From positions 1 through 43,117 of the forward strand of contig JAFZED010000038.1 in assembly GCA_017560825.1 (NCBI GenBank): a stretch of DNA of 43,117 nucleotides. Direction: 5' to 3'. The notes under the pieces are model-generated. The model was not told where the DNA came from. It saw only the letters and a program-made list of their open reading frames with translations, and made no database searches. Shown piece by piece: positions 1 to 43,117 of this stretch (positions are counted from its first letter, which is position 1; every line of letters starts with the position of its first letter). Origin of the DNA: Bacteroidales bacterium (GTDB taxonomy: Bacteria; Bacteroidota; Bacteroidia; Bacteroidales; UBA932). A program made the translations under genes and the position numbers.

Positions 1-150
1 CTCAAGTGTGGTATCTGCGGTGAGCACGGTGGTGATCCTGCATCAGTTGAGTTCTGCTACAAGATCGGTCTCAACTATGTATCTTGCTCTCCATTCCGCG
101 TTCCAATCGCACGCCTCGCTGCTGCTCAGGCTGCAATCAAGAATGCATAA
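1..150 (+). CDS. ppdK: Pyruvate phosphate dikinase, C-terminal end (partial)
   Basis: The window opens inside this gene; 49 codons and a TAA stop are visible. The segment [20 protein letters not shown] followed by [19 protein letters not shown] is the highly conserved C-terminus of pyruvate phosphate dikinase, the enzyme that interconverts pyruvate and phosphoenolpyruvate using ATP and phosphate in the cytoplasm. The Cys-Gly-Glu-His segment belongs to the PEP/pyruvate-binding TIM barrel and holds the proton-donating cysteine of the family. Codons are strongly biased (GGT, GCT, CTC), as expected for a highly expressed central-metabolism gene. A hairpin terminator follows 23 bases after the stop. 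The start and the rest of the gene lie outside the window. Confidence 0.93.
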
Positions 151-173
151 TCAGACGCAGTTCTATAAATAAT

Positions 174-210
174 GTGGTCTCGCTCAATCGAGCGGGACCA
201 CTATTTTTTT
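174..210 (+). terminator. Rho-independent terminator after ppdK
   Basis: GTGGTCTCGCTC (174-185) pairs with GAGCGGGACCAC (190-201) through 12 base pairs with one G-U, a four-base AATC loop, and a run of T at 204-210. The opposing gene's stop codon (184-186) lies inside the hairpin, so the structure serves convergent transcripts. Confidence 0.85.
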
Positions 211-2124
211 AAGGGCTTTATCTGCAAGATCGGTCTTGCTTGCAATATGTTCTCTGACTGATTTTACAAACGGGTCATCGTCAAATCCCGAAAGTCCGGC
301 CAAAGTAAATTCCTTTCTTGCATCTTCATAGATCAGGTTGTCCAGGTCTATGACAGATGAACGCCATCTTATGATCAGCTCTGAGAGTTTCTCCACTGTC
401 ACTGATTCAAGAGAGAGCCCATAGTACTCCTGGATCATATAGCAGGCCCACTTCCATTCATAGTTATAATAATTCGAATGAAGATCCGCGAAGAGTCTGC
501 CGAGCATCTTCACATCCGTGATCCTGCCATTCTCTATTGCATCCAGAACATCATCAACTGCCTTCTCCGGTGCAATCATACCGGCAAGATCCGTCCACTT
601 ACCATCGCCATACTCCTTGTCGGGAGTCAAGGCGTGGCGCAGCTGTCGGACAGAAAAGAAATCAGAGTTCATTAACCTGGTTATCAAGGAATTGCCCAAG
701 AATTTGTCTATAGCATAGCCATAGTACTGAAGTCCTTTTTCAAGCGAGCTTCTCTTGATTCTTCCTCCTTGATAATCATAGGTTTCAGCCATATCCCCAA
801 AGTCCTGCTTGAGTTTCTCAAGTATAGCGACCCCGTTAAGCATCTTCTGAATTGTATATGGACTCAAAAGATTGCAGTTGACACAGTCCAGCCGCTCAGG
901 ATCTTTGCGGGCGTCTCTCATCGGCCACTTCTTTGCGTCCCTTATAGTTCCGACACTCTTGAGATTTGCTCCCGGCATTATGTAAGTGGTGCTCTGCTGC
1001 TCGATAAGATAGGAGAACGGCAGATCAGACGTATCCTGATGACTCACGTGACGTCCCATAACCAACGAAAAGGCTCCGACTCTGGCAGGCCATAATATAT
1101 ATGAATCAGAGGCCGTCTTCGCTCCCCTCTCAAGAATGCCGTGATGAATAGGACCAAGCTTGTACATATGGTTACTCTGGTTCGAACCCGAACCGGCATT
1201 CATAAACGAGAACATTCCGGCTATCAGAAGGGTGGACTTATGATGGGTCACCGTGTACGGACCGGCGAATATTGAACAGGCTTCACCATTCTCACCCCTG
1301 CAGTTGCTGAAGAACAGAGAATCTGTCGCAGAATAGTTGCGCCCCAGATGGCAGGCCTGACCTATGAAGCAGCGCGAGAATGTAACGCCATCCTCAACCG
1401 ATGAACCGCTGGATATGATGAAGTCATCTCCTACCACACCCACACCTATGTGTACAGGAGCCTTTCGATTGCTGTTTATGCTTCCGTTCTTCAGACGGGA
1501 AGCGCCCTCGATCTGGCAGCAGTCCCCTATCCTGACATTCTTTATATATCCGGAATCTGCGATGACCACGTCTTCGCCGATATGACCGACAGAGGAAGTC
1601 ACTGAAGCGACATACGACTTCACCATTGATTTCAGGCGGGCAATCATTTCCGGTCTATGGCGATACATAGCCATAATATAGGCTGCCTGCGCAGATAGCG
1701 AATCATATATGATGACCTCGCGTCCTCCGGTTTCATTCAAGATCGAGACCTCGACTCCATTCCCGAAAGTGCTCTGGCCGTCTGTGAGGATTATATCGAC
1801 ATTCTCAATGAATGTCCCCCTACCTATATTATAATTAGCTATATAGTTCTTGACATTCTCGATGCAGCAGTCATCGCCGACCGTCACATTGTGAAGGGTC
1901 GCATAGTAGATGCCGGAATGTTTCCTCATTCCGCCGGGGAGTTCAAAGACTTTTCTGAAGGAGCCGAGCCTTATGTTGCCGGAGAATCTGACATAACGGA
2001 TGTTATCAGCCGTAAAATCCGGATCGACCTCTATCTGGTCCCAATCCGTTGCAGAGCACATCCGGGACTCCAGGAAAGAGATTTCTGAAGATGTAAGTTT
2101 TCTATAAGCTGTCGTCATTTTCAT
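184..2124 (-). CDS. DUF4954-family left-handed beta-helix protein
   Basis: This 646-residue protein has many imperfect hexapeptide-type turns (for example VTVGDDCCIENV, GEDVVIADSGYIKNVRIGDCCQIEG), the pattern of a left-handed beta helix as in acyl- and nucleotidyltransferases. The arrangement, with an alpha-helical C-terminal third, matches the DUF4954 family of Bacteroidetes, whose function is not established; a sugar-nucleotide or acyl-transfer role is only inference. There is no signal peptide, so it is cytoplasmic. I place the start at the ATG at 2124 (MKMTTAYRKL), which overlaps the end of recX by 23 bases; an in-frame ATG at 2118 is equally possible, and the open frame upstream of 2124 reads through recX. 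It is the last gene of the leftward operon rlmN-patatin-recX-DUF4954 and its stop sits in the shared terminator. Confidence 0.8.
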   Translation of the reverse strand: MKMTTAYRKLTSSEISFLESRMCSATDWDQIEVDPDFTADNIRYVRFSGNIRLGSFRKVFELPGGMRKHSGIYYATLHNVTVGDDCCIENVKNYIANYNIGRGTFIENVDIILTDGQSTFGNGVEVSILNETGGREVIIYDSLSAQAAYIMAMYRHRPEMIARLKSMVKSYVASVTSSVGHIGEDVVIADSGYIKNVRIGDCCQIEGASRLKNGSINSNRKAPVHIGVGVVGDDFIISSGSSVEDGVTFSRCFIGQACHLGRNYSATDSLFFSNCRGENGEACSIFAGPYTVTHHKSTLLIAGMFSFMNAGSGSNQSNHMYKLGPIHHGILERGAKTASDSYILWPARVGAFSLVMGRHVSHQDTSDLPFSYLIEQQSTTYIMPGANLKSVGTIRDAKKWPMRDARKDPERLDCVNCNLLSPYTIQKMLNGVAILEKLKQDFGDMAETYDYQGGRIKRSSLEKGLQYYGYAIDKFLGNSLITRLMNSDFFSVRQLRHALTPDKEYGDGKWTDLAGMIAPEKAVDDVLDAIENGRITDVKMLGRLFADLHSNYYNYEWKWACYMIQEYYGLSLESVTVEKLSELIIRWRSSVIDLDNLIYEDARKEFTLAGLSGFDDDPFVKSVREHIASKTDLADKALKKIVVPLD

Positions 2125-2593
2125 TATATAAAATCGTGTCAACCATCTTCGACACCTCATCGTAGCCATAGCCTCTTGAGAGGGCGAAGCGCTTGAGTTT
2201 CAAGCCTTTCTGCGGGTCATTCTTCAAAGAACGCGCCTTGGTTTCCAACAATTTATATAATTTTGAAGATGCTCGGTCATCATCGATGTCGGCAAGGGCC
2301 GAAGATATGTCCTCCTGAGATATCCCTTTGGCCTGAAGCATATACCTTATCTTGACGGCACCCCATCCGGCGATGGAAGACTTATCACGGGCATATGCGG
2401 ACGCATATCGACTGTCGTCGATATATTTTTCCGATATGAGCTGGTCCATCAGGCGCTGCGCCTGATCGCGGTCACCTTCCAACGCTGTCAGGAGTTTCTT
2501 CATTATATCACCGCGACAGTACTCGCGACGCGAGCACAGCACCCTCATCCGGTCAAGGACCTTGGCAGGATCTTTCTTTCCGTCTGTTGCCAT
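2102..2593 (-). CDS. recX: Regulatory protein RecX
   Basis: The product is a 163-residue, basic, all-helical protein with the RecX three-helix repeats: an N-terminal block (RMRVLCSRREYCRGDIMKKL), a central block with the family hallmark YIDDSRYASAYARDK, and GWGAVKIRYMLQAKGIS. RecX binds RecA filaments and limits recombinase activity. It is not directly next to recA here: it is the third gene of a leftward operon whose promoter region is shared, back to back, with recA (recA starts at 6262). That keeps the usual recA-recX linkage in divergent form. It is four bases downstream of the patatin gene, and its 3' end overlaps the DUF4954 start. Length is normal for Bacteroidetes RecX. Confidence 0.9.
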   Translation of the reverse strand: MATDGKKDPAKVLDRMRVLCSRREYCRGDIMKKLLTALEGDRDQAQRLMDQLISEKYIDDSRYASAYARDKSSIAGWGAVKIRYMLQAKGISQEDISSALADIDDDRASSKLYKLLETKARSLKNDPQKGLKLKRFALSRGYGYDEVSKMVDTILYNENDDSL

Positions 2594-9388: not shown

Positions 9389-10186
9389 TTATCTCACTTT
9401 ACGGCGTACCGCCATCATAAAGCGGTAGACGACTTCTGAATTAAGGTCCCACTCAGGGAAATCAGCGCACAAGTACTCCACTACCTGATCGAGGCTTTCC
9501 ATCTGATTGATCTTGGTAAGCGATTCCTGGAAGGCCATAGGATCCTCCTTGAAGAGGTAATTTATGAATATGATTCTGTCGTTAAGTGAAATCGCACTTC
9601 TGATGTCTCTTACCTGTGAGCCAGGCATATCCTTTCTCCAGGCCTGCTGCGCGGCCATCGCGTCATTGACAGTCGGCTTGGCAACACTCTCTGCCTTCTC
9701 AGCCACTGTGACAGGTGCCGGTTCGGCGACAGGAGCCTCTTCTGCAATAAGTACCGGTTCTTCAACAGGCGCTGGTTCTTCATCAAAGAACGGCAGGTCA
9801 TCCACCGGTGCTTCTTCTACAGGCAGATCCTCTTCAGGAAGATCGTCAACTTCCACTTCGGCCTCTACAACCTCCTCAACAGGCTCTTCAACCGATTCCT
9901 CGACTGGTTCTTCAACAGGTTCCTCAACAGGCTCCTCAGCCGGTTCCTCTGCAGCTTCAACCTCCTCAGCAAGAGGGATTTCCTGCTCCTGAACCATCTC
10001 TTCCACGACCTGCTCCGCAACAAGCGGCTCATCAATTTCGAGGTCAATAGATTCCGCCTCAAACTCTTCAGGATCCACCACCTGCTGCAACTCGGCCATC
10101 TTGGCGTCCAGCCTTTCAAGCTGCACCCTGATCGAAGCCATCATAGACTTGATTTCAGATAAAATCTGCTGCTCCTTATTTTCCAT
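9389..10186 (-). CDS. Acidic Glu/Pro/Val-repeat protein with conserved C-terminal domain
   Basis: This 265-residue protein has three parts: an N-terminal coiled-coil-like helix (about 1-37, [19 protein letters not shown]), a low-complexity acidic middle (about 38-160) with EEPVE-type pentapeptides at 80-105, and a well-ordered C-terminal part (about 188-265: [20 protein letters not shown] to [13 protein letters not shown]). The C-terminal block, with the RSAISLNDR sequence, resembles an uncharacterised conserved Bacteroidetes domain; I cannot name a function. No signal peptide or membrane segment is present. It is divergent from tdk (82-base gap) and 5 bases upstream of rsmI, so probably co-transcribed with rsmI. 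Confidence 0.75.
9872..9949 (-). repeat. In-frame 15-bp tandem repeat (EEPVE units)
   Basis: About five degenerate 15-base units encode residues 80-105 of the acidic protein ([26 protein letters not shown]...). The units differ mostly at synonymous positions. Unit number is likely to vary between strains. The opposite strand gives a spurious Ser/Gly/Thr-rich open frame. Confidence 0.7.
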
Positions 10187-10201
10187 AAAGCAATATTTGA
10201 C

Positions 10202-10209
10202 TATATTTG
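10202..10209 (+). promoter_or_regulatory. tdk promoter -7 box
   Basis: TATATTTG is an exact TAnnTTTG match, 60 bases upstream of the tdk start codon, in the divergent gap between tdk and the acidic repeat protein gene. Confidence 0.5.
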
Positions 10210-10268
10210 CGTTCCCCTTTCGAAGGGCTGTGATTATTTACGAAGAAGATAACATACAAAGTAAGGAA

Positions 10269-10847
10269 ATGTTTTTAGAAAACGCAAAAAAAGCAGGTTC
10301 TATTGAGGTAATCTGCGGTTCGATGTTCTCAGGAAAGACAGAGGAACTCATCAGAAGGATGAAAAGGGCACAGTTCGCAAAGCTCAACATAAAGATATTC
10401 AAGCCTTGTATCGACGTACGCTACTCTGAAGAGGATGTAGTTTCACACGATGCCCACAGCATTCCTTCCACACCCATTGACGCACCTGCAAAGATGCTTG
10501 AGATGATAGGTCAGGTAGATGTGATCGGTATCGACGAAGCACAGTTCTTTGACGGATCTATTGTCGAAGTGGTCCAGACACTTGCCAACAACGGTATCAG
10601 AGTGATAATCGCAGGTCTTGACACAGACTTCCTCGGCAAGCCGTTCGGCCCTATGCCAGCACTTATGGCAGTGGCAGAAGACATCCAGAAGGTTCACGCC
10701 ATCTGTGTAAAGTGCGGAAGCCCGGCCAACCACTCGCACAGACTTTCAAAGAGCAGCGAGCTTGTAGTTCTCGGAGAAACAGACATATACGAACCTCTCT
10801 GCAGGCACTGCTACAACTCAGCAATAAAAGAAGAAAAGGAAGCGTAA
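10269..10847 (+). CDS. tdk: Thymidine kinase (type II)
   Basis: The 192-residue enzyme phosphorylates thymidine with ATP in the salvage pathway. Visible are the P-loop [14 protein letters not shown] (residues 17-30), the Walker B-like DEAQFF, the lid region with zinc-binding cysteines (CVKCG and CRHC), and the thymidine-binding [19 protein letters not shown] place the start at 10269 ([10 protein letters not shown]), preceded by AAGGA; the longer open frame upstream passes through the promoter. The TAA stop lies in the loop of an 18-bp bidirectional terminator hairpin. Length is normal for bacterial TK1-type kinases. Confidence 0.95.
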
Positions 10848-10867
10848 CAGCTTCCTTTTCTTCTTTT
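10826..10867. terminator. Bidirectional terminator overlapping the tdk stop
   Basis: A perfect 18-bp stem (left arm 10826-10843, right arm 10850-10867) has a six-base GTAACA loop containing the tdk stop codon. The left arm encodes the last lysine/glutamate-rich residues of tdk, and the right arm reaches the stop codon of the opposing TSCPD gene. A/T-rich arms supply U-runs in both directions. Confidence 0.8.
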
Positions 10868-11240
10868 ATTTCAACGACTTAAGCACTTTGGCCAACTGAT
10901 CCGGACAGGACGTTCCCCTCTTTCCGCAGGTAATACCTTCGAGGCGCCTTATCGCCTCCTCTACAGTCATATCCTTGACCAAGGCTCCTATTCCTTTAGC
11001 ATTTCCTTCGCAGCCTCGTGTATATACCACCTTCTGGATCACTCCGCCTACAATCTCGATTTCGATCTTGTTCGAGCAGACCTTCGCGCTCGGCACTGCT
11101 GTAACATATCTGACACCTTCCACCAGCTCATCCTTTACGATGCTGAAGTCATTCCCATCAGAAGCGACCGCTGTCTGCTCCTGAGCCATTGCTGTAATAC
11201 TCATAAGTATAAAAGCAGTTAAGATAAGTAATCGTTTCAT
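10866..11240 (-). CDS. Exported TSCPD-domain protein
   Basis: The 124-residue product has an N-terminal signal peptide (MKRLLILTAFILMSITAMAQ) followed by a complete TSCPD domain (about residues 45-124). Its four conserved cysteines are Cys55 (KVCSNKI), Cys77 (TRGCEGNAKGIG), Cys105 (ITCGKRG) and Cys112 (TSCPDQLA), matching the TIGR03905 four-Cys proteins and the C-terminal domain of some B12-dependent ribonucleotide reductases. The domain is normally cytoplasmic and thought to bind metal or nucleic acid; here it appears to be exported. The start at 11240 places the signal peptide at the N-terminus; the open frame further upstream overlaps the next gene. It follows the small helical-protein gene by 31 bases. 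Confidence 0.8.
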   Translation of the reverse strand: MKRLLILTAFILMSITAMAQEQTAVASDGNDFSIVKDELVEGVRYVTAVPSAKVCSNKIEIEIVGGVIQKVVYTRGCEGNAKGIGALVKDMTVEEAIRRLEGITCGKRGTSCPDQLAKVLKSLK

Positions 11241-11271
11241 ATGATTTTGGATATAAAAATCGAAGCGGAGA

Positions 11272-11508
11272 CTAGAACAATGTAGGATGATTGTCATCCA
11301 GTTCCTTGAGTATCTTTTCCATAATCGCCTCTCTGAACAGCACAGCCTTCGTACCCACACGGAACTTGTCGCAGTACTGCTCAATGGCAGCCATCTCACT
11401 GTCATTCAAATAGATGACCTGTCTGTGCCTGCGTACCAGTGACTCCTTCTGTTTCTTGAGGTACTCCGGATCCACACCCTTCACGGTATTTTTCTTCTTC
11501 TTTGCCAA
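11272..11508 (-). CDS. Small basic protein, ribbon-helix-helix-like
   Basis: This 78-residue protein starts with a lysine cluster (AKKKKNTVKG), then a segment RRHRQVIYLNDSEMAAIEQYC with a short predicted strand followed by helices (VGTKAVLFREAIMEKILKEL). That layout (strand, helix, helix) resembles ribbon-helix-helix DNA-binding proteins such as MobC/Arc types, but I do not recognise a named family. The only plausible start is a TTG at 11508-11506 preceded by AAAGG; no in-frame ATG exists before residue 39. It has its own minus-strand TATTTTTG promoter box and heads a two-gene unit with the TSCPD protein, divergent from the arginine operon. Confidence 0.65.
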   Translation of the reverse strand: MAKKKKNTVKGVDPEYLKKQKESLVRRHRQVIYLNDSEMAAIEQYCDKFRVGTKAVLFREAIMEKILKELDDNHPTLF

Positions 11509-11531
11509 ACCTTTACATATTGATTGATTTG

Positions 11532-11539
11532 CAAAAATA
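11532..11539 (-). promoter_or_regulatory. -7 box for the small basic protein / TSCPD unit
   Basis: On the minus strand the sequence reads TATTTTTG, an exact TAnnTTTG match, 23 bases upstream of the TTG start. No convincing -33 element is seen. Confidence 0.45.
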
Positions 11540-11574
11540 GTAAAAAAAATCCTCCAACATATGCAGTATTTTCT

Positions 11575-11582
11575 TATATTTG
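11575..11582 (+). promoter_or_regulatory. Arginine operon promoter -7 box
   Basis: TATATTTG matches TAnnTTTG exactly. Transcription would start near 11588, leaving a leader of about 170 bases before the first gene at 11759. Confidence 0.5.
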
Positions 11583-11589
11583 CGTATTA

Positions 11590-11666
11590 TGTCAATTTCG
11601 ATTCAAATATTCGTCCGACTTTAGGAGGGGCTCTCAGAAGCGTTTCCCTCCCAATTGCAATTGACA
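11590..11666 (+). promoter_or_regulatory. Structured leader of the arginine operon (candidate)
   Basis: Outer arms TGTCAATT (11590-11597) and AATTGACA (11659-11666) are perfectly complementary over 8 bp and enclose an inner stem GGAGGGG (11624-11630) with TCCCTCC (11645-11651, one G-U). A 12-bp palindrome, CAATTGCAATTG, lies at 11652-11663. A short frame, ATG at 11589 to TAG at 11624 (MSISIQIFVRL), sits on the 5' side and holds one arginine codon. A further weak stem (TCCC/GGGA, 11703-11717) follows. I do not recognise a known riboswitch; the nested arrangement suggests leader-level control of arginine genes. Confidence 0.4.
11592..11605. promoter_or_regulatory. ARG-box-like operator
   Basis: TCAAT-TTCG-ATTCA agrees at 9 of the 10 half-site positions with the ArgR half sites TGAAT and ATTCA separated by four bases; the spacer has C and G where A/T are usual. 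It begins just downstream of the predicted transcription start, a suitable place for repression by ArgR. No argR gene lies in the window. Confidence 0.4.
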
Positions 11667-11758
11667 ATCTCGGTTTGTCTTGCCGTTAGGATCACTATCG
11701 ACTCCCAATTTTCGGGACATTCCACGAATCAAAAATATTAACCATATTTTAGACATCT

Positions 11759-12367: not shown

Positions 12368-12401
12368 CCAGACAAGAAAATAAATATAAAGGTATATACA
12401 T

Positions 12402-13589: not shown

Positions 13590-13596
13590 TCTCTTC

Positions 13597-13631
13597 GTCA
13601 TTCAGACTGGACGAAGCGAATGGAGAAATCT
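13597..13631. repeat. GTCATT-type intergenic repeat (degenerate)
   Basis: In the 44-base gap between argG and argC the sequence begins GTCATTCAGACTGGACGAAG, continues with a GCGAATGGAG segment and ends in AAATCT. It resembles the GTCATT...AAATCT dispersed repeats common between genes in Bacteroidetes and elsewhere. CTTCGTC (13593-13599) and GACGAAG (13610-13616) form a 7-bp stem. It runs almost to the argC start codon at 13634. Relatives are at 36389-36430 and 41243-41303. Confidence 0.5.
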
Positions 13632-31500: not shown

Positions 31501-31630
31501 ATCACTTGATGACTTCTTCACAGTTTCTAACTATCCTGGTTTCGACCCTGAGGTTACTAACATGGGTATTGACAAGGGTACATTCCCAACTTCTAAGAAG
31601 GTTGTTGCTGGTGTAAGCATTACATTCTAA
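28565..31630 (+). CDS. susC: SusC/RagA-family TonB-linked outer-membrane transporter
   Basis: The 1021-residue outer-membrane receptor has a signal peptide (residues 1-29, ending LTVSAQ), a carboxypeptidase-regulatory-like domain (about 34-103, VTGKVIDELNSPMVGVSV), a TonB-box region EETVVVGYG (110-118), a plug domain (about 120-235, VVVDGRIGSLAGIDPNDIES, GAEAGNGVILVTT) and a 22-stranded barrel. It imports oligosaccharides with its SusD partner. The symbol denotes the family only. A 6-bp hairpin (GTAGAA-ATG-TTCTAC, 28507-28521) lies in the gap after the esterase gene. Codons are strongly biased (GGT, GCT, TCT, AAC), as for highly expressed outer-membrane proteins, and CATG, missing from the first 25 kb of the window, is frequent here. 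Confidence 0.97.
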   Translation: MRTNSTFSRMISTALAMLLILAGSLTVSAQNLVKVTGKVIDELNSPMVGVSVIEKGTQNGVMTDGNGMYEITANAGSTLEFSYIGYLTVDKTAINGTINVNMEPDNEMLEETVVVGYGVQKKSSLTGSVTQVKSEDITGRTITNPAQALQGKTSGVQVLTSSAKPGASPSILVRGIGSNGSSSPLVVVDGRIGSLAGIDPNDIESMEVLKDGASAAIYGAEAGNGVILVTTRKGKGNGNITYDYQYTSQSLARVPQMMNAEQYIDYYTEAGLISLENFYNNWDFETNTDWTKVGFENSNMQRHNLTFSAGDMNKSIYVSGSYLNNNGIVAGDKDFYERLTGMVNASWKIKPWLEIGTNNQVEYYKSSSVSEGSEYGSYLLAVLNLDPLTKPLYSVDNLPKHMADIYYGDHAPMLGDGKGNVYGVSNFNTSENQNPFIMRDSSDNDSRGYNLNGTTYINFMPIKGLTITSRLGYRLTSSESYSIGHDYYANAMHHQNYISVNASTYASTYWQWENFLNYNKSFKGHDFGVMLGTSFTESRSFGVSGGKHGSDGDLGFKKDDPLFLYFAYATANAEDDISGGEASFSRKNSYFGRLNYEYKGKYLLQASLRADAADSSVLPVETRWGYFPAVSAGWVISNESFMMDTKAWLSHLKFRASWGQNGSLSALGGYRYATVIGGTGSYPTGNGTEYIDGYAPSATGNKELKWETAEQTNIGIDSRFLNNRLSFSADWFLKNTKDLIVTGITPSTVVGNTASPVNAGNITNTGLEFELGWQDHIGDFSYGIRGNLSTIKNKVTYIHETLDAIDGQSFHTYGAITRFEVGKPAWYFYGYEFDSIDAATGNPTFKDLNEDGAITDADKTMIGKGIADFTYGITLTAAWKGLDLIVFGTGSYGADIYSCLNRPDYTLNKLTYFTENRWTPTNTDATMPRAGATDMDKYYTSSASVFNGSFFKIKQIQFGYTFPQKWMKTVKVDNLRVYASLDDFFTVSNYPGFDPEVTNMGIDKGTFPTSKKVVAGVSITF

Positions 31631-31649
31631 CCATATAAATAATACTGAA

Positions 31650-33203
31650 ATGAAAGCAAAAAATATATTTATGGCTCTTGCTGCGACTACTGTCGCATTG
31701 AGTTCTTGCAACCATCTGCTGGACATTCCACAGCACGGTGTGCAGAACTATGAGACCTACTATCAGACCGATGAGGAGGCTGAGGCAGCCATCATTTCCT
31801 GCTACATCCAGGTAAAGGGAAATGAGATGAACTATGTGCTCGGTAAGAATATGCTTACTGACGACTTCTGGGCAGGCGGCGGCGGACGTAACGACAACGC
31901 TGACCTCGAAGGACTTAACGAGTTCACATTCAACACAGACCAGGGATACCTCGAGGGTATGTTCACCGCATACTACGGTATCATCTATAAGGCTAACGTA
32001 GTTCTCGGACACGTTCCTGATGAGAGCGAGATCCAGAAGCGTGCTAGAGCTGAGGCTAAGGTTTTCCGCGCATGGTCATACTTCGAGCTCATCTCAATGT
32101 GGGGTAACCCACCACTCGTAGACCACGAGCTTGAGCCATCTGAGTACCACAAGCCAAACGGAACTACTGAGGAGCTTTGGGCACTCGTAGAGAAGGACCT
32201 CAACGAGGCTATCGAGTCAGGTCTCCTCACTGAGAAGGCTAACGCTGACGACAAGACTTGGAGAGTTACAAAGCAGTTCGCTCAGGCACTCCTCGGAAAG
32301 GCATATCTCTGGCAGAACAAGTATGAGGAAGCAGCAGCTGAGTTCGACAAGATCATCAATAGCGGTCTTTACAGACTCTACGCTGACTACGAGAACGTTA
32401 TCGCTTTCACTACAAAGCAGAACTGCGAGAGTATGTTCGAGAGCGTGAAGATCTCAGACCCTAACAACGTCTGGAACAACTTCACAATGCTCCACCTCAT
32501 GACTCACTACCGTACTGATAAGCTCGTTGACAACTGCTGTACTAACGCAGGTCTCGCAGGTCTCGGATGGGGCTTCCTTAGCCCACAGAAGAACCTCTAC
32601 GATGATTTCGTAGCAGTAGAGGGTGAAAACGGATATCGTCTCAACGCTACTATGAAGACTTGGGAGCAGATGGTTGACATGGGTATCAACGTGAAAGAGG
32701 GTAACACTATCATCAACGAGGGTTACTTCATGTGGAAGACCAGAATCACTGCTGAGCAGGTTCCAGCTGCAGGTTCTAACTTCGTAGACGACGCCAACAG
32801 ACAGTGGATGCGTTATGCTGAGGTTCTCCTCTGCGCTGCTGAGGCTCACTTCGAGGCAGGCAACCAGGGCAAGGCTGACGAGTACATGAACATGATCCGT
32901 ACACGTGCTCAGGCTCCTACAAAGAGCGGCTACACTCAGGATGAGATCAGAAGAGAGAAGAGAATCGAGCTCTGCCACGAGGGTACACGTTTCCAGGACC
33001 TCCTCCGTTGGGGCATCGCTGAGGAAAGAATGAAGGATCAGGGCGCTTACTGTCCACTCCTCAACCACAATGGTCAGATCGAGAACAAGGTTTACAACAC
33101 AGACCCTGCTAAGTTCGGTTTCAAGCCTAAGCACAATCTCCTTCCTTACCCAGGAACTGAGATCCGTCTTAATCCTAACATCGTTCAGAACCCAGGTTGG
33201 TAG
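31650..33203 (+). CDS. susD: SusD/RagB-family surface glycan-binding lipoprotein
   Basis: The 517-residue protein begins with a lipoprotein signal (ALSSC, Cys20) and shows the SusD pattern: an N-terminal helical part with LLDIPQHGVQNYETYYQTDE, the TPR-like region (RARAEAKVFRAWSYFELISMW, FAQALLGKAYLWQNKYEEAA), and the C-terminal signature YAEVLLCAAEAHFEAGNQ, IRREKRIELCHEGTRFQDLLRW. It caps the SusC barrel and delivers glycan. It is separated from susC by 19 bases. Aromatic residues for sugar binding cannot be assigned with certainty. Confidence 0.97.
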   Translation: MKAKNIFMALAATTVALSSCNHLLDIPQHGVQNYETYYQTDEEAEAAIISCYIQVKGNEMNYVLGKNMLTDDFWAGGGGRNDNADLEGLNEFTFNTDQGYLEGMFTAYYGIIYKANVVLGHVPDESEIQKRARAEAKVFRAWSYFELISMWGNPPLVDHELEPSEYHKPNGTTEELWALVEKDLNEAIESGLLTEKANADDKTWRVTKQFAQALLGKAYLWQNKYEEAAAEFDKIINSGLYRLYADYENVIAFTTKQNCESMFESVKISDPNNVWNNFTMLHLMTHYRTDKLVDNCCTNAGLAGLGWGFLSPQKNLYDDFVAVEGENGYRLNATMKTWEQMVDMGINVKEGNTIINEGYFMWKTRITAEQVPAAGSNFVDDANRQWMRYAEVLLCAAEAHFEAGNQGKADEYMNMIRTRAQAPTKSGYTQDEIRREKRIELCHEGTRFQDLLRWGIAEERMKDQGAYCPLLNHNGQIENKVYNTDPAKFGFKPKHNLLPYPGTEIRLNPNIVQNPGW

Positions 33204-33232
33204 TCATCTGTAAATAATACAAGAAGATTATT

Positions 33233-35176
33233 ATGAAACTTATCTATAAAATATTTGCTGCAGCTGCCTCAATCCTGGCACTCAGCTCTTGCGTGGAGAA
33301 CGCAATCGAGGACTTGACCGGCAAATATGAGAAGCCAGTTGTTCACGAGATGAACACACTCGCATCTCAGTCGGTTGAAAAGGGCGAAAAGACCCGCACA
33401 TTCACAGTGGAGATTACCGGTGATAACGCAGCTCTCACTATGGTGATGGTAGGTGACAAGTATTTCCTTGCTGACGGCAGCTACACTCCAGCTACTGCTG
33501 ATCAGGCAAAGAAGAACACTTATATCGTAGGTAACGGTGGCACAACTTTCAACAACATTCCTGTTGAAGGCGGTTCAATCAAGGTTACTCAGGGCGAAGG
33601 CACATACTCATTCGCTGGTATCCTTTGGCTTGCCGACGAGTCTGTAATCGAGGTTAAGTCTACTGTCGCACTCGTTTACGAGGCTGATCCAGAGCCAGTT
33701 AAGCTTACAACTCTCCTTTCTGCTACAAGCAACGTTGCAAGCGGTACTAACTCTCTCACAATCAACCTTGGAACTGACGGTATCTCTTCAACTACAGACC
33801 CAACTACTTGGCAGACTGTATGGACAGGAACAGGTAACTACCTCGCACTCGACATCTACTCAGCTGACGGATACCTCCATGAGGGTACTTACACTGCTTG
33901 CGCAGTAGGTGGTACAATAAACGAAGGTGAGTTCGGTATCGGTTGGGATCCAGGTGACCTCTGGGGTATCGGTATGGTATTCGAGAACTGGGGTACTTGC
34001 TGGTGGGATGTTGCTAACGGTGCAGCAGTAGTAAACCAGAAGGTAACTGAAGGAACTGTAACTGTAACAAGAAAGGGTTCTAAGTGGGTTATCGAGCTCG
34101 TATCCGGCGAAGGAAAGGGTATGCTTTGGACTAAGTTCGAGGGTGCTATAGACGCTCTTACTGACCCCGCTCTCGGCGGTGGCGGAAACGTTGACGACAC
34201 TGACTATGTTGAGCTTACTAACCTCCTTTCAGCTACAAGCAATGTAGCAAACGGCACTAAGTCTCTTACTATCAATATGGGACAGGAAGGTCTTTCTTCT
34301 ACTACTGATCCTACTACATGGGCTACAGTATGGGAAGGCGAGGGTAACTACCTTGCTCTCGACATTTACTCTGAGGATGGCAAACTTTATACTGGTACTT
34401 ACACTGCTTGTGCAACTGGCGGCGCAATCAACGCTGGTGAGTTCGGTATCGGTTGGGATCCAGGTGACCTCTGGGGTATCGGTATGGTATTCGAGAACTG
34501 GGGTACCTGCTGGTGGAATGTTGCCGGTGGTGCAGCTGTTGCAGCCGGCAAGGTAACAGACGGTACTGTTCAGGTGCTCGTCGAGGGTACTGACCTTGTA
34601 ATCAAGCTGAAGTCTACTCTTGTCAATGCTAAATTCACTTATCCAGTAGCACAGTTCGTTGACGGTACTGGCGCTCCTATCGAAGTAGTAAACCTTGGTG
34701 GTGGTGAAGAACCTGAATTCGAAGGCACAGAGCTTTCTGTTCTCCTTTCTGCAACAAGCAATGTAGCAAACGGCACAAACTCAGTTACAATCAACCTCGC
34801 TGAGGAAGGAATCTCTTCAACACAAGACCCTACTACATGGCAGACCACATGGGAAGGTGAGGGACACTACCTCGCACTCGACGTTTACTCTGCTGACGGT
34901 AAGCTTGCTCCTGGTACTTACACTGCTTGTGCAGCAGGTGGTCAGATCGCAGAGGGCGAGTTCGGTATCGGCTGGGACCCAGGTGACCTCTGGGGTATCG
35001 GTATGGTATTCGAGAACTGGGGTACTTGCTGGTGGAATGTTGCCGGCGGTGCAGCCGTTTGCGAGGCTAAGGTACTCGACGGTACTCTTACTGTAGCTGT
35101 TGACGGTGACACTTACACTATCACTCTCGAGAGCTCAGAAGTTAACGCACGCTATGTAGGTCCAATGACCCTTTAA
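33233..35176 (+). CDS. Surface lipoprotein with three tandem Trp-rich domains (SusE/F position)
   Basis: The 647-residue product has a lipobox (ALSSC, Cys20), a unique N-terminal domain (about 24-150), and three tandem domains of about 150-170 residues starting near 158, 328 and 501. Each opens with LLSATSNVA, continues through SSTxDPTTWxTxW, YLALDxYSxDG and GTYTAC, and contains an almost invariant 26-residue block, EFGIGWDPGDLWGIGMVFEN followed by WGTCWW, at 233-258, 403-428 and 576-601. I recognise no named family. The position after SusD points to a surface glycan-binding protein; the exposed Trp/Tyr could stack on sugar rings. A hairpin that may terminate or attenuate transcription follows. 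Confidence 0.85.
   Translation: MKLIYKIFAAAASILALSSCVENAIEDLTGKYEKPVVHEMNTLASQSVEKGEKTRTFTVEITGDNAALTMVMVGDKYFLADGSYTPATADQAKKNTYIVGNGGTTFNNIPVEGGSIKVTQGEGTYSFAGILWLADESVIEVKSTVALVYEADPEPVKLTTLLSATSNVASGTNSLTINLGTDGISSTTDPTTWQTVWTGTGNYLALDIYSADGYLHEGTYTACAVGGTINEGEFGIGWDPGDLWGIGMVFENWGTCWWDVANGAAVVNQKVTEGTVTVTRKGSKWVIELVSGEGKGMLWTKFEGAIDALTDPALGGGGNVDDTDYVELTNLLSATSNVANGTKSLTINMGQEGLSSTTDPTTWATVWEGEGNYLALDIYSEDGKLYTGTYTACATGGAINAGEFGIGWDPGDLWGIGMVFENWGTCWWNVAGGAAVAAGKVTDGTVQVLVEGTDLVIKLKSTLVNAKFTYPVAQFVDGTGAPIEVVNLGGGEEPEFEGTELSVLLSATSNVANGTNSVTINLAEEGISSTQDPTTWQTTWEGEGHYLALDVYSADGKLAPGTYTACAAGGQIAEGEFGIGWDPGDLWGIGMVFENWGTCWWNVAGGAAVCEAKVLDGTLTVAVDGDTYTITLESSEVNARYVGPMTL
33713..35173 (+). repeat. 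Three in-frame long repeats in the surface lipoprotein gene
   Basis: Units begin at 33713, 34223 and 34742, so the offsets are 510 and 519 bases. Inside each is a 78-base core (33929-34006, 34439-34516, 34958-35035). Copies 1 and 2 differ at one base and copy 3 at two to three, although flanking parts of the units have diverged at many positions. The encoded core residues are identical in all three. Confidence 0.9.
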
Positions 35177-35192
35177 TCTAAATACACTTATT

Positions 35193-35224
35193 GCAGGCCG
35201 TCTATCTATGGGCGGCCTGTATTT
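35193..35224 (+). terminator. Hairpin after the triplicated lipoprotein gene
   Basis: CAGGCCG (35194-35200) and CGGCCTG (35213-35219) form a 7-bp GC-rich stem, extended by a G-U pair, with a 12-base loop and followed by ATTTAA. The T run is weak, so it may attenuate rather than stop transcription between the binding-protein genes and the enzyme genes. Confidence 0.55.
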
Positions 35225-35241
35225 AACCACATAAGACAACA

Positions 35242-36387
35242 ATGAAAAGAATCCTTATTGCCCTTGCATCACTAGCAATGGCATCAGGCGCTCTTTGCGC
35301 GCAGGAGCTGACAAACTTCGCTTTCTGGGGACAGAAGCCTGTTGTTTCTCCTGAAATTCAGAATGACAGCGTAACATTCAGACTTAAGGCTGATTACGCT
35401 ACAGTAGTGAAGCTCAGTGGCTCATGGATGCCAAACCCTTGGGGTGGTACAATCGACATGACTCGTGGCGAGAACAACGTTTGGGAAGTAACTATCCCAC
35501 TCCCAGAGCCAGAGATCTATACTTATAACTTCATCGCTGACGGCGTTTCTGTAAACGACCCTCAGAATGTGATGGTTCAGCGTGACGGTTCACGCTACCT
35601 CAGTATGCTCCTCGTTGACGGAGAACGTACTGAGAACTACAAGTCTGCAGAGCAGAGAGGTACAATCAGCCATCCTTGGTATGACAGCAAGATCCTCGGC
35701 ATCAACCGTCGTCTCACTGTCTACACTCCTTACGGATATGAGGCTAACCCTAAGGCAAAGTACCCTGTTCTTTACCTCCTTCACGGAGCAGGCGGAGACG
35801 AGGAGGCTTGGTCATCAATGGGCCGTACAGCTCAGATTCTCGACAACCTCATCGCAAAGGGTCTTGCGAAGCCTATGATCGTGGTTATGCCTAACGGCAA
35901 CCCTAACCAGCAGGCAGCTCAGACTTTCGGTCTTCCTACAACTGAGATGGACTGGAGAAACCCAGACAACCGCAACAACTACGTAAGAAGCCTTGTTGAG
36001 GAGATCGTTCCTTTCATCGAGAAGAACTACCGCACAGTTGCTAAGAAGTCTCACAGAGCTATCGCAGGTCTTTCTATGGGTGGCGGCCACACAATCGCTG
36101 CTTCCGGAATGTATCCTGAGGCATTCGACTACATCTGCCCTCTTTCAATGGGTGCACAGAGAACTCCTGAGCTCGATGCTCAGCTCCAGGGTATCAAGAA
36201 GGCCGGCTACAAGCTTTACTGGCTTGCTTGCGGTAACACAGACTTCCTCTTTGAGAACGCTAACGAGCTTGATGCAGCTCTCACAGCTAACGGTCTCGAG
36301 CATACATATTTTGTAAGCGAGGGTGGCCACGTATGGGCTAACTGGAGACTCTATCTCAACACATTCGCTCCGCTTTTGTTTAAATAA
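35242..36387 (+). CDS. CE1-family esterase with N-terminal CBM48-like domain (1)
   Basis: The 381-residue exported protein has a signal peptide (to about residue 20), an early-set/CBM48-like beta domain (about 25-125: VTFRLKADYATVVKLSGSW, YTYNFIADG), and a C-terminal alpha/beta-hydrolase domain of the CE1 feruloyl/acetyl-xylan esterase family. The triad is Ser278 in AGLSMGG, a probable Asp334 in GNTDFLF, and His363 in EGGHVWANW; the oxyanion motif is LLHGAGGDEEAW. It probably removes ferulate or acetate from arabinoxylan-type oligosaccharides. Three CE1-like paralogues follow. It differs from the next paralogue by lacking the insertion before the triad serine. A GTCATT-type repeat follows the gene. 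Confidence 0.9.
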   Translation: MKRILIALASLAMASGALCAQELTNFAFWGQKPVVSPEIQNDSVTFRLKADYATVVKLSGSWMPNPWGGTIDMTRGENNVWEVTIPLPEPEIYTYNFIADGVSVNDPQNVMVQRDGSRYLSMLLVDGERTENYKSAEQRGTISHPWYDSKILGINRRLTVYTPYGYEANPKAKYPVLYLLHGAGGDEEAWSSMGRTAQILDNLIAKGLAKPMIVVMPNGNPNQQAAQTFGLPTTEMDWRNPDNRNNYVRSLVEEIVPFIEKNYRTVAKKSHRAIAGLSMGGGHTIAASGMYPEAFDYICPLSMGAQRTPELDAQLQGIKKAGYKLYWLACGNTDFLFENANELDAALTANGLEHTYFVSEGGHVWANWRLYLNTFAPLLFK

Positions 36388-36388
36388 A

Positions 36389-37646
<1,258 letters not shown>

Positions 37647-37657
37647 TTTAAGAACTT

Positions 37658-38875
37658 ATGTTCAAGAAGATTTCTATAATATTGTCTTCTCTGCTGCTCA
37701 TCTGCGCATGCGGAGAAGACAATAAGACTCCTCAGAATCAATTGCCTACCGGATTTGATTTCAATATGGTGACAATAGAAAACGTTTCCGAACCGGCCGA
37801 TGATGGTCTCAGGACAATCGTTCTGAACTTCAAGGACAAGGAAGGAAATGCTCTGAAGCTTACTGCAATGAGCTGGTATTGTCATCTTGAGACCGGAAGA
37901 TACGAGATTGCTTCGGAGCCAGATGCAAAGCATAAGGCTTCAGCAGAGCTCTCGCTCGGCGAGGAGAAGGTAACTGTTACCGGAGGTACAATTGCAGTCA
38001 GCAAATGGAACTACGAATACGATATCGTATTCAATCTGGAGACAGAAAAGGGACATTTTGCAGGAATCGCAGATAACAAGAAGCTCTATTTCGAGACTCA
38101 GAAGTACAGTTCGCTTTCAAAGGGAGCCAATGAAATCTATCAGAAGGATCTTACTGTACGAAGCGAACTGATGAATACTAATGTAAAGTATTCGATATAT
38201 CTGCCTGAAAGCTATGACGGCACGAAGAAATATCCTGTACTTTACATGCTGCATGGATATGGCGGAAACAACAACGACTGGCTCCAGGACAACACTGGTT
38301 CAATCTGGGCAGGCGGCGGAACAATGCCTGCATATGCAAGGGAATATGCTGAAAAGACTGGCAAGGAACTGATCATCGTAGCACCAGACGGTGGAAACAA
38401 TTTCTACTGTGATGGATTCAACGGAGGTCCTAAGTACATGTCGTTCTTCTTCCAGGAATTCATTCCTTACATCGAGTCTACTTACGCCATCAAGGCAGAG
38501 AAGAAATCGCGTGCCATCGGCGGCCTTTCAATGGGAGGATATGGATCACTCTATTACGGTTCCCTCCATCCTGAGATGTTCTGCTATGTTTACGCTTGCT
38601 CTGCTGCTGTAAATGTCAGTGGTTCACCTGATCCTGCAGTGCTTATCGCTCAGAGTGTAAGCGCAGGAAAAATCAACGAATTGCCGGGATTTACGCTCGA
38701 AATCGGAACAGAAGACACAACTGTACCTGTCAGCAGCAATAATTCATTCATAAACATGCTTGCAGGCTACGGAATCCCATATGAGTACATCACTCGCCCA
38801 GGATCTCATGACTGGCCATTCTGGAATGCTTGCAGTCCTAAGATCATCCAGAAGGTCATGACAATATTCGAATAA
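37658..38875 (+). CDS. Lipoprotein CE1-family esterase
   Basis: The 405-residue lipoprotein (signal ending CACGED, Cys16 or Cys18) has an unrecognised N-terminal beta domain (about 30-150) distinct from the CBM48-like module of its neighbours, and a CE1 domain from about 170. The triad is Ser291 in GGLSMGG, Asp353 in GTEDTTV, and His384 in PGSHDWPFW; the oxyanion loop is MLHGYGGNNNDW. Lipid anchoring puts it on a membrane, possibly the cell surface, where it could remove acyl groups before import. Its divergence from the other three CE1 enzymes suggests a different bond or glycan position. 16 bases before the GH3 gene. Confidence 0.88.
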   Translation: MFKKISIILSSLLLICACGEDNKTPQNQLPTGFDFNMVTIENVSEPADDGLRTIVLNFKDKEGNALKLTAMSWYCHLETGRYEIASEPDAKHKASAELSLGEEKVTVTGGTIAVSKWNYEYDIVFNLETEKGHFAGIADNKKLYFETQKYSSLSKGANEIYQKDLTVRSELMNTNVKYSIYLPESYDGTKKYPVLYMLHGYGGNNNDWLQDNTGSIWAGGGTMPAYAREYAEKTGKELIIVAPDGGNNFYCDGFNGGPKYMSFFFQEFIPYIESTYAIKAEKKSRAIGGLSMGGYGSLYYGSLHPEMFCYVYACSAAVNVSGSPDPAVLIAQSVSAGKINELPGFTLEIGTEDTTVPVSSNNSFINMLAGYGIPYEYITRPGSHDWPFWNACSPKIIQKVMTIFE

Positions 38876-38891
38876 ACACAAACAATAACTA

Positions 38892-41234
38892 ATGAAAAAA
38901 ATCATTTCAATCGGAGCTATGCTCCTCGGTTCTGTGGCTATGTTTGCGCAGCCGCAGCTTACAAAAGACAACATCGACGAGGTTATCGCTGCGATGACTC
39001 TCGAAGAGAAGGCAACACTGCTCGTTGGTAGCGGTTGGGGCAGCATGACAGCAGGTAGTATGACTGCTTCTGCAACTGCCCTCGTACCAGGTGCAGCAGG
39101 TACAACACGTTCTATCGAGCGCCTCGGCATTCCTTCAACTGTCCTCGCTGACGGTCCTGCAGGTCTGCGTATCTCACCTAGACGTGACAACGATCCAAAC
39201 ACTTATTTCTGTACAGGTTTCCCTGTAGGTACAGTGCTCGCAAGTATGTGGGACACTGAGCGCGTTGAAGAGCTCACTACAGCAATGGGTAACGAGGTTC
39301 TCGAGTACGGTGCTGACGTTCTCCTCGCTCCAGGTATGAACCTTCACAGAAACCCTCTCTGCGGACGTAACTTCGAGTACTTCTCAGAGGACCCATTCCT
39401 TACTGGTAAGACAGCTGCCGCTTACATCAACGGTATCCAGAGCAACGGTGTCGGCGTAAGCGTTAAGCACTTCGCTGCAAACAGCCAGGAGGTTAACCGT
39501 ATGGAGAATGACTCACGCGTGAGCCAGAGAGCTCTCCGCGAGCTTTACCTCAAGGGATTCGAGATCGCAGTGAAGGAGTCTGATCCTTGGACTGTGATGT
39601 CATCATACAACAAGCTTAACGGCGAGTACACTCAGCAGTCACACGGTCTCCTAACAACTGTCCTTCGTGATGAGTGGGGATTCGACGGTATCGTAATGAC
39701 AGACTGGGGTACAAAGGAAGGTACAGTTAAGGCTGTAAACGCTGGTAACGACCTTATGGAGCCAGGTATGCAGGTTGAGATCGACCGCATCATCGCAGCT
39801 GTTAAGGCTGGCGAAATCTCTCAGGAGCAGCTCGACAAGAATGTTCGCAACATGCTTACATACATCGTGAAGACTCCACGCTTCAACAAGTACAACTACT
39901 CAAACAAGCCTGACACTAAGGCACACGCTGAGCTCGTTCGCGCAGCAGCTCCAGAGGGAATGGTTCTCCTCGAGAACAACGGTGTGCTTCCACTCAACGG
40001 TGTGAAGACTGTAGCTCTCTACGGAACAGGTTCTTATGACTTCATCGCCGGTGGTACCGGTTCAGGTAACGTGAACAAGCCATACATCCGCAATGTAGCT
40101 GAGGGTCTCACTGTAAACGGATTTGAGGTAAATCCTGAAATCCAGAAGTGGTACGAGCAGTACATCGCATTGGCTAAGACTAACCTCAGAAACAACGGTG
40201 CAGGCGGTTCATCAGTTCTTCTTGGTGACCCTGTAATCTCTGAGATGGAAGTAAGCCGCGACTATATCGAGAGAATGGAGCGCGCAACTGACGTCGCTAT
40301 CTTCACACTTTCAAGAAATGCAGGTGAGGGTGGAGACCGTTACGCACTCGACGGTGACTGGACTCTTACAGGTCAGGAGCGTCAGCTCATCCAGACCCTT
40401 GCTGACGTTTACCACGCAGCTGGCAAGAAATTCATCGTTGTCCTCAACATCGGTGGTGTGATCGAGACTGCATCTTGGAAGCACATTCCAGACGCTATCC
40501 TTCTTGCTTGGACTCCAGGTCAGGAAGGCGGTTATGCTGTAGCTGACATCCTCTGCGGCAAGGCTAATCCTTCAGGTAAGCTCCCTATGACTTTCCCTGT
40601 AAGCTACCTCGATATTCCTTCATCAGCTAACTTCCCTTACAACTACAAGAATGTACAGACCGGCATGTGGGATTTCCTCTGGGGCGGTCAGAAGAGACAG
40701 ACAAAGGATGTTGACTACACTGAGTATGCTGAGGGCATCTATGTAGGCTACAGATACTTCCAGAGCGCTGGTGCTCCTGTTTCTTACCCATTCGGCTATG
40801 GTAAGTCTTACACAACATTCGAGTACAGCAAGCCTGTTGTAAAGGCAACTGCAGACGGTTTCACAGCTACAATCACTGTAAAGAACACAGGTAAGGTTGC
40901 AGGTAAAGAGGCTGTTCAGCTTTATGTTGCCGCTCCTGCAGGTGGTCTTGAGAAGCCAGCGTTCGAGCTTAAGGGCTTTGCAAAGACTAAAGAGCTTGCT
41001 CCAGGTGAGGCACAGACTCTTACGATCAACGTTGACAAGTACACTCTTGCTTCATTCAACGAGGCGACTTCAGCTTGGGAGACTGCAGCTGGTACTTACA
41101 AGGTGATGTTCGGTGCAAATGCTGCTGACATCCGCGGTACTGCTGACTACAAACTCAAGAAGGCTGAAAGCTGGAAGGTGAACAACGTTCTTGCTCCTGA
41201 GCAGCCGATAAATGAACTTTCTCTTGTAAAATAA
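38892..41234 (+). CDS. Glycoside hydrolase family 3 (beta-glucosidase/xylosidase type)
   Basis: The 780-residue exported enzyme (signal ending AMFAQ) has a GH3 N-terminal TIM barrel, an alpha/beta C-terminal domain and a fibronectin type-III-like tail (about 690-760: VKATADGFTATITVKNTGK). The nucleophile is Asp271 in IVMTDWGTKEG. Substrate-contacting motifs are DGPAGLR, RNPLCGRNFEYFSEDP and VKHFAANSQE; the acid/base Glu is not assigned with certainty. Substrate is an exo-cleaved beta-glycoside, with xyloside or glucoside not distinguishable here. In an esterase-rich PUL a xylan-type substrate is plausible. A GTCATT-type inverted repeat follows its stop. Confidence 0.93.
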   Translation: MKKIISIGAMLLGSVAMFAQPQLTKDNIDEVIAAMTLEEKATLLVGSGWGSMTAGSMTASATALVPGAAGTTRSIERLGIPSTVLADGPAGLRISPRRDNDPNTYFCTGFPVGTVLASMWDTERVEELTTAMGNEVLEYGADVLLAPGMNLHRNPLCGRNFEYFSEDPFLTGKTAAAYINGIQSNGVGVSVKHFAANSQEVNRMENDSRVSQRALRELYLKGFEIAVKESDPWTVMSSYNKLNGEYTQQSHGLLTTVLRDEWGFDGIVMTDWGTKEGTVKAVNAGNDLMEPGMQVEIDRIIAAVKAGEISQEQLDKNVRNMLTYIVKTPRFNKYNYSNKPDTKAHAELVRAAAPEGMVLLENNGVLPLNGVKTVALYGTGSYDFIAGGTGSGNVNKPYIRNVAEGLTVNGFEVNPEIQKWYEQYIALAKTNLRNNGAGGSSVLLGDPVISEMEVSRDYIERMERATDVAIFTLSRNAGEGGDRYALDGDWTLTGQERQLIQTLADVYHAAGKKFIVVLNIGGVIETASWKHIPDAILLAWTPGQEGGYAVADILCGKANPSGKLPMTFPVSYLDIPSSANFPYNYKNVQTGMWDFLWGGQKRQTKDVDYTEYAEGIYVGYRYFQSAGAPVSYPFGYGKSYTTFEYSKPVVKATADGFTATITVKNTGKVAGKEAVQLYVAAPAGGLEKPAFELKGFAKTKELAPGEAQTLTINVDKYTLASFNEATSAWETAAGTYKVMFGANAADIRGTADYKLKKAESWKVNNVLAPEQPINELSLVK

Positions 41235-41242
41235 TTCATAAC

Positions 41243-42504
<1,262 letters not shown>

Positions 42505-42510
42505 GACTTT

Positions 42511-42534
42511 ATCCCCGGCCTGACCGGGGATTTT
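42511..42534 (+). terminator. Rho-independent terminator after CE1 esterase
   Basis: ATCCCCGG (42511-42518) and CCGGGGAT (42524-42531) form a perfect 8-bp stem with a five-base loop, followed by TTTT. Confidence 0.75.
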
Positions 42535-42550
42535 AACGAAATAAATATAT

Positions 42551-43117
42551 ATGAAGACATTGAAACTATTGGCGGCAGCTGCCCTGATGAGCTGCTTTAC
42601 AGCGAATGCCCAGGAGCTGGTCATCAGAATCGATGATATGGGAGCCCTGCACTCCGTAAACGAAGCAAGCATCGACACCTACAAGAACGGAATCGCACAA
42701 TCGGCAGAAGTACTGGTTGTAGGTTCCTGGTTCCCGGAGGCCGTAAAGATGCTGAAGGAGAATCCGGGACTTGATGTAGGCGTACATCTTGCCATCACAA
42801 GCGAATGGGAGAACGTAAAGTGGAGACCACTTACAGACTGTCCCAGTCTTGTGGATGAGAACGGCTACTTCTTCCCAATGATGGGCCCTAACGCCGCTTA
42901 TCCCGGACAGTCGATAATGGAGAATATGGCCAATTTCGACATCAACGAGATCGAGAAGGAGTTCCGCGCCCAGATCGAACTGGCCCTCAAGAACATCCCG
43001 CAGGTTACGCATATATCAGGTCATATGATGTCCACAGCATTCAACCCTCAGGTGATGGAGGTCGTACAGAAGCTCTCGGAAGAGTACAACCTTCCGTCAA
43101 TTGACCGCGGAGAGGCA
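42551..43117 (+). CDS. YdjC/ChbG-family carbohydrate deacetylase (partial)
   Basis: The first 189 codons are visible and the gene runs off the right edge. A signal peptide (MKTLKLLAAAALMSCFTANA) precedes the YdjC/ChbG fold. The metal-binding pattern is Asp28/Asp29 in RIDDMGALHSVNEA, His79 in VGVHLAITSEW and His158 in HISGHMMSTAFNP. Members of this family deacetylate N- or O-acetylated oligosaccharides (chito-oligosaccharides in the case of ChbG). Here the role is probably glycan deacetylation within the PUL, though the terminator at 42511-42534 separates it from the upstream gene. The start at 42551 is the first ATG after that terminator and begins the signal peptide. Confidence 0.85.
   Translation, partial: MKTLKLLAAAALMSCFTANAQELVIRIDDMGALHSVNEASIDTYKNGIAQSAEVLVVGSWFPEAVKMLKENPGLDVGVHLAITSEWENVKWRPLTDCPSLVDENGYFFPMMGPNAAYPGQSIMENMANFDINEIEKEFRAQIELALKNIPQVTHISGHMMSTAFNPQVMEVVQKLSEEYNLPSIDRGEA

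Follow-up and report, generated by a model that had tools for sequence, protein, structure and literature searches.

We analysed a 43,117-nucleotide stretch of Bacteroidales DNA (the window: the whole of contig JAFZED010000038.1 of assembly GCA_017560825.1, C38 in our numbering) in which the tetranucleotide CATG is missing from one part and present in another. The genome of the window, G000, is a metagenome-assembled genome (MAG) of 2.06 Mb in 82 contigs and 77% complete; G numbers denote genomes and L numbers stretches or loci. By CATG count and gene families, positions 1–25,020 are native, CATG-free DNA with core genes, among them recA, recX and those for arginine biosynthesis. The left CATG boundary (25,024) lies inside the gene of a hybrid two-component regulator (sensor, kinase, receiver and AraC by Pfam; 22,585–26,637, minus strand). 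The CATG-bearing tract spans 25,021–40,670 (41 sites versus 79 expected, two-state segmentation) and takes in the N-terminal part of the regulator, a carboxylesterase and the core of a polysaccharide utilization locus (PUL). On the plus strand lie the carboxylesterase (26,743–28,491; two CATG, 70–74% identity to relatives in the 27-kb bin), a SusC-like TonB-dependent receptor (28,565–31,630; 82–92% identity over 2.6 kb to eight other genomes) and, by gene family match, a SusD-like protein (31,650–33,203). These are followed by a 647-aa open reading frame (ORF) without a Pfam match (33,233–35,176), three esterases (35,242–36,387, 36,441–37,646 and 37,658–38,875) and a GH3 glycosidase (38,892–41,234) that holds the last CATG at 40,664. 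The right end (40,671–43,117) is again CATG-free and encodes a fourth esterase (41,320–42,504).

Counting across the window gave 41 CATG, the first at 25,024 and the last at 40,664. There is none at 1–25,000, where a Markov model using the region's own trinucleotides expects 113 and composition expects 98; the preliminary description, which had put the absence up to about 25,020 and the shortage at roughly 98 sites, was therefore accurate. Five sites fall at 25.0–28.7 kb (22 expected), and the single positions it listed are correct to within 2 bases (25,024, 25,216, 26,594, 28,074 and 28,401), as is its statement that none occurs from 41,235 onwards (0 versus 9 expected for 41,236–43,117). Its figure of about thirty sites at 28.7–40.7 kb located the cluster, although the actual number is 36 (28,747–40,664), and its wording that CATG is common in the susC–GH3 block needs qualifying, since these 36 are fewer than the 59 expected for 28,701–41,235. 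Synonymous codon shuffling (500 shuffles) gave the same picture as the Markov model: the 20 genes on the left have no CATG versus 88.4 expected (standard deviation 7.2, minimum 65), and the eight genes of 26.7–41.2 kb have 38 versus 60.0 (standard deviation 5.2, minimum 40), so that the seemingly rich block is itself mildly depleted. The effect is visible in the codons, as had been described: 0 of 195 ATG codons are preceded by C in the left genes compared with 25 of 124 in the block, even though C is the most frequent third codon base in the left genes. In the left part, CTAG is at 0.09 of expectation and the 14 remaining palindromes are at 0.61–1.25. CTAG is also low in relatives, with 75 of 80 loci under 0.6, regardless of their other depleted palindromes.

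The earlier proposal that avoidance extends beyond the window holds in the quarter of the genome that was sampled (31 stretches including the window, 514 kb, 25% of G000). CATG stands at 0–0.05 of expectation in 22 of the 31 stretches, with a maximum of 0.56 (L028), and in the pooled sample it is the sole tetranucleotide below 0.35 among words with at least 30 expected, CTAG set aside. Two-state segmentation leaves 459 kb as native, with 22 CATG versus 1,921 expected (0.011), and sets apart ten CATG-bearing segments (55 kb, 160 versus 250 expected), two of which are tiny (one and two sites). As the segmentation assigns CATG clusters to tracts by construction, the native count may miss native sites. 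On C57, for example, 16 CATG are confined to 9,878–14,043 (purH, a purM-like gene and two others) with zero in the remainder of 20 kb, and C77 has 44 inside its first 12.6 kb. The genes in the tracts include tyrosine integrases, a resolvase, an MmeI-like Type IIG enzyme, an AbiD protein, a HamB-like helicase, a TIR-like protein and an acyltransferase, and this content has the look of imported DNA. MmeI-like enzymes recognise asymmetric sites. The MmeI-like gene, truncated by a contig end and adjoining the AbiD gene within a CATG tract (L019, 1–3,778), was considered as the cause of the purge and rejected because its own tract holds 15 CATG and because of that asymmetric recognition.

The PUL carries a different kinship signal from the core genes. 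Its susC gene is 92% identical to that of G544, 89% to G551, 88% to G554 and 87% to G645, compared with 77–80% in the arg region for G544, G551 and G554; G645 has no arg-region match, which may be a gap in a genome 89% complete. High identity covers about 29–40 kb (81–91% for G551). By bin, G544 reaches 91–94% at 29–33 kb and G551 84–91% at 29–37 kb, with core bins at about 77–83%. Judging by similarity above the genome background and out of line with core kinship, the susC–GH3 block is a transferred PUL, in agreement with the acquisition suggested earlier. The import has uncertain edges; on the left, the 23–27-kb bins (regulator and carboxylesterase) are only 67–74% identical and CATG is sparse at 25.0–28.7 kb. 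Within CATG-free DNA, positions 20,000–23,000 are up to 92% identical to G321 (L221), well over the usual 77–80%, which perhaps reflects an older exchange.

The named relatives are for the most part Bacteroidales MAGs; many are of animal gut origin and several are called Candidatus Cryptobacteroides. Comparison with relatives places part of the loss in time. The closest species, sister L049, is about 86–87% identical (87% over argD–otc) and has 44 CATG versus 97 expected across 18.8 kb of syntenic DNA, about half depleted; of its 41 in-gene sites that align with G000, not one reads CATG there. Among CATG sites common to at least 60% of normal outgroups, G000 retains 0 of 74, L049 14 of 71, L050 0 of 39, L051 0 of 14, L054 6 of 11 and L117 35 of 50, and ten other words put through the same test are retained at 0.19–0.65 in G000. 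As L049 retains such sites, at least part of the loss in G000 postdates their split. On an argD–otc tree the avoiders stand at several places, and well-supported branches force at least three changes; the relatives were partly picked for matching the window, so that frequencies of avoiders among them are not unbiased.

Several lines of evidence suggest that the depletion is a product of Type II restriction. In 101 sequence sets, ratios below 0.35 were found in 38 of 1,339 tests on palindromes (depleted CTAG left out of the hits) versus 4 of 11,985 on non-palindromes, each time CTAA; this tally pools chosen stretches, seems to count at least one pair twice (G055 and L126) and omits, among others, L222 of G544 (40 CATG versus 43 expected), L031 and L035, as well as L032, L033, L041, L195 and L227, which have no readable bases. 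Three genomes bear double handles, as judged by identical contigs (G544 = G023, G448 = G022 and G657 = G334). Extreme depletion is therefore nearly limited to palindromes, the mark of Type II restriction, and the palindrome varies by species (CATG, GATC, AGCT or ACGT). For GATC the link to a system is visible in G029, which has a DpnII endonuclease operon with methylases and 1 GATC versus 75 expected; similar gene sets in G028, G324 and G429 go with GATC at 0.24–0.33.

For CATG, the corresponding genes were found in relatives. Searching 299 genomes of the taxonomic family with the ICEA family put G217, G324 and G319 over the cut-off, with G146 weak, and a search of 400 genomes of the genus with the G324 endonuclease gave four matches, G429, G482, G319 (its copy truncated by the end of a contig) and G657; G544 and G680, both in the genus draw used for the susC comparison, were presumably among the 400. 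The operon comprises M1 (an N6/N4 methylase), R (a full-length ICEA match, E 8.5e-114) and M2 (a D12 methylase, E 1.2e-48), and this joining of an ICEA-family endonuclease to an adenine methylase, seen in G482, G319, G324, G429 and G334, places it in the NlaIII family. ICEA/NlaIII enzymes cut CATG. The relatives' operon probably shares this specificity, going by its family, with indirect support from depletion in its carriers: CATG is at 0.01 in G319, 0.08 in G324, 0.06 in G429 and 0.13 pooled in G482 (0–0.02 outside its PUL stretch, L218). Within the genus the endonuclease thus goes with strong depletion in four of five carrier genomes. The ICEA match G217 has CATG at 0.23–0.51, the weak match G146 at 0.44–0.65, and sampled genus members outside the hits (G055, G074, G091 and G105) at 0.79–1.02. 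No structure-solved relative of the operon endonuclease was found by sequence. A SacI-like pair in G544, whose target we take to be GAGCTC, was set aside as a CATG system on account of that other target.

We consider it probable that native CATG was purged through selection by a CATG-specific, orthodox Type II restriction–modification (R-M) system and that CATG was left in later imports. The system would most probably be of the NlaIII (ICEA) kind, as in the same-genus relatives: an occasional unmethylated CATG would be cut at a cost to growth, and mutants losing sites synonymously would win. DNA arriving later from non-avoiding species would retain its CATG, being too recent for the purge, and the susC–GH3 block would be one such import, partly purged. 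We infer that an NlaIII-type enzyme with CATG as its target acted in this lineage and that the enzyme of G000 is either unassembled or very recently lost. CATG-targeting restriction had been raised in the preliminary description, and the NlaIII-family operon in relatives makes it the likeliest cause; the methyltransferase or endonuclease gene that the description proposed to look for had no match among the families searched in the assembled 77% of G000.

A number of observations weigh against this interpretation. G000 has no D12, N6_N4, C5, ICEA, R or M2 match in its assembled 77%, PF02384 and PF07669 not having been searched genome-wide, and the absence of the operon there therefore means that it is unassembled, that it was recently lost or that another system acts. 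G334 (= G657) has the whole operon with weak CATG depletion (0.45–0.93, of which 0.61–0.93 as G657), and some genomes lacking R are partly depleted (G001 0.08–0.34, G645 0.12–0.53, G003, G010 and G011 0.65–0.66). Most stretches of G544 (95% complete) avoid CATG although this genome has no match to R, M2 or any D12 methylase, and G600, the sister of G680, has a C5 methylase at the ilvE/lptG junction in place of the NlaIII-type genes of G482. The PUL block is itself mildly depleted. Finally, in Helicobacter pylori the HpyI site CATG is over-represented (1.25), according to a passage of PMC3849833.

Three other accounts of the pattern were weighed. Directed mutation instead of selection, such as deamination of methylated cytosine in CATG, would fit the predominance of TATG among phase-3 replacements (140 of 241 relative to six normal relatives), but the same comparison gives mainly T to C in phase 1 (CACG, 80 of 138) and A to C, T or G in phase 2 (CCTG, CTTG or CGTG, 57 of 75), with TATG, GATG and AATG together at 200 of 241 in phase 3. 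The changed base moves with the synonymous position and C-to-T or G-to-A changes do not dominate in phases 1 and 2, so we rejected directed mutation as scarcely credible. Rather, synonymous escapes used in each phase point to selection against the word CATG itself and agree with the codon shuffles that avoidance acts at synonymous positions, as had been supposed. The preliminary description had also offered relaxed avoidance in highly expressed genes, by which the PUL would keep CATG through its codon usage. The block does have distinct codon usage, yet of the 80 ORFs with the most susC-like codons in the sampled G000 stretches (the seven ribosomal-protein genes tried lie outside these), the 71 outside tracts have 6 CATG versus 435 expected. 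The same PUL, moreover, is purged in other avoiders: shared CATG sites are retained at 19 of 45 in G000 and 15 of 44 in G482 compared with 0 of 34 in G544, 0 of 44 in G680 and 0 of 44 in G600, where other PUL words are retained at 0.33–0.75, except AGCT at 0.11 in G680 and 0.19 in G600. We therefore rejected the expression-based explanation, to which we give almost no weight; time since arrival is the better explanation for CATG kept in the PUL. The sharp boundaries and the MAG source could point to a contig joined from two organisms or wrongly binned, but this is very unlikely given that several such segments are spread over separate contigs, with integrases in three and purH/purM in another, and that single stretches of G551, G482, G680 and G600 match regulator and PUL together.

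Other possibilities concern which system acted and whether it is still present, and here two gene junctions are informative. At ilvE/lptG, G482 has M2-R-M1 (L188, 8,867–11,652) and its relative G680 only M2 (L281, 9,837–10,838); at a second junction, where by eye the flanking genes resemble a kinase of the deoxynucleoside kinase type and an acyl-CoA synthetase, the arrangement is M1-R-M2 in G334 (L196, 688–3,157) and M2 alone in G335 (L194, 8,923–10,068). The operon thus seems, from gene order, to have been eroded to a lone methylase twice. G680 nevertheless has 8 CATG versus 322 expected, so strong avoidance can outlast the endonuclease at the ilvE/lptG site (compare G335, at 0.33–0.53). Accordingly, within the favoured restriction-based explanation, the NlaIII-type operon may have been deleted, in some lineages leaving a lone methylase, with CATG not yet returned. 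This is a serious possibility for which the chances are somewhat below even: G000 has no R-M gene beside ilvE (C19) or lptG (C57), and passages of PMC4687349 describe traces of lost systems, but native CATG is present at only 1.1% where other words turn over by about 45% between G000 and its sister, so that any loss would have to be of very recent date and to have occurred in several lineages. That G000, G544 and G600 use a different, non-homologous system specific for CATG is rather unlikely, though it would fit the failure to find the NlaIII-type operon in these three avoiders and the several changes that avoidance needs on the argD–otc tree. The C5 methylase at the G600 junction has an N-terminal helix-turn-helix domain and is accompanied by a 273-aa ORF with no Pfam or PADLOC match (L320, 3,881–5,149; L303, 646–1,464), a pair that may be an undescribed restriction enzyme. 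Against a non-homologous CATG system, the C5 methylase is a candidate only, and no such gene was identified in G000. In G544, CATG is at 0 versus 32, 50 and 68 expected in three stretches and 22 versus 93 in a fourth, two contigs are CATG-rich (53 of 65 and 40 of 43 expected), and the ilvE and lptG matches lie about 130 bases apart. It is improbable, but not negligible, that avoidance in G680, G544 and G000, where no CATG endonuclease was found, is kept up by neighbours' restriction across an exchange network; if so, DNA trade with NlaIII-type carriers would reward DNA that survives entry, and CATG would be purged network-wide, not within one cell.

The purge by a Type II system, the reading we prefer, has clear precedents. 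Rusinov et al. 2015 (PMC4687349) treat, in the passages relevant here, the avoidance of Type II sites, its dependence on system lifetime and its traces after loss; the palindrome, the Type II link, the dependence on lifetime and the traces in gene-less relatives are shared. Their avoidance threshold is 0.78, compared with 0.011 in native G000 DNA (by a Markov and not their Karlin expectation), and here the sister stands at about half, normal relatives are near 1 and imports are visible as tracts. G000 shows an under-represented, palindromic word lost synonymously, with a probable cognate system in close relatives; in G000 itself none was found by the searches given above. As in NlaIII and HpyI (ICEA, PF05315), the relatives' endonuclease is a full-length ICEA match beside a D12 adenine methylase. 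Unlike these, the operon of the relatives has a methylase gene on either side of R, lies between housekeeping genes and is down to M2 alone in two genomes, with no copy found in G000. DpnII systems, through G029, show the same link of R-M to avoidance for another word and with other genes.

A literature search brought up no paper whose title describes a nearly complete purge of CATG in this group. Restriction-site avoidance is already known; what may be useful to the specialist is the roughly 1% of sites left, the readable import tracts and the recurring loss of all but one methylase gene at fixed junctions. Because CATG is purged to about 1%, an intact CATG cluster marks a recent import, and the genome thereby paints its own kilobase-scale map of gene transfer (PUL, purH/purM and defence islands), largely independent of base composition. 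Species of this clade seem to have gained and lost such R-M systems, which would allow the rates of word removal and return, and the first-lost part of an R-M operon, to be measured.

Several relatives show further patterns. Stretches L281 and L287 of G680 avoid two words, with AGCT at 0.00–0.06 and CATG at 0. The PUL of G600 (L220) retains 7 of 36 AGCT sites, though AGCT is at 0.71–1.09 in four other G600 stretches, and may derive from an AGCT-avoiding relative such as G680. Other missing palindromes are ACGT (L072), AGCT (L073, L086 and L094) and TCGA (L106, a short stretch), and G010 (L043) lacks both ACGT and AGCT. Five rumen or omasum MAG loci (L111–L115) have CATG at 0.15–0.36, and in G343, to which L114 belongs, a D12 methylase gene adjoins a 424-aa ORF (L260).

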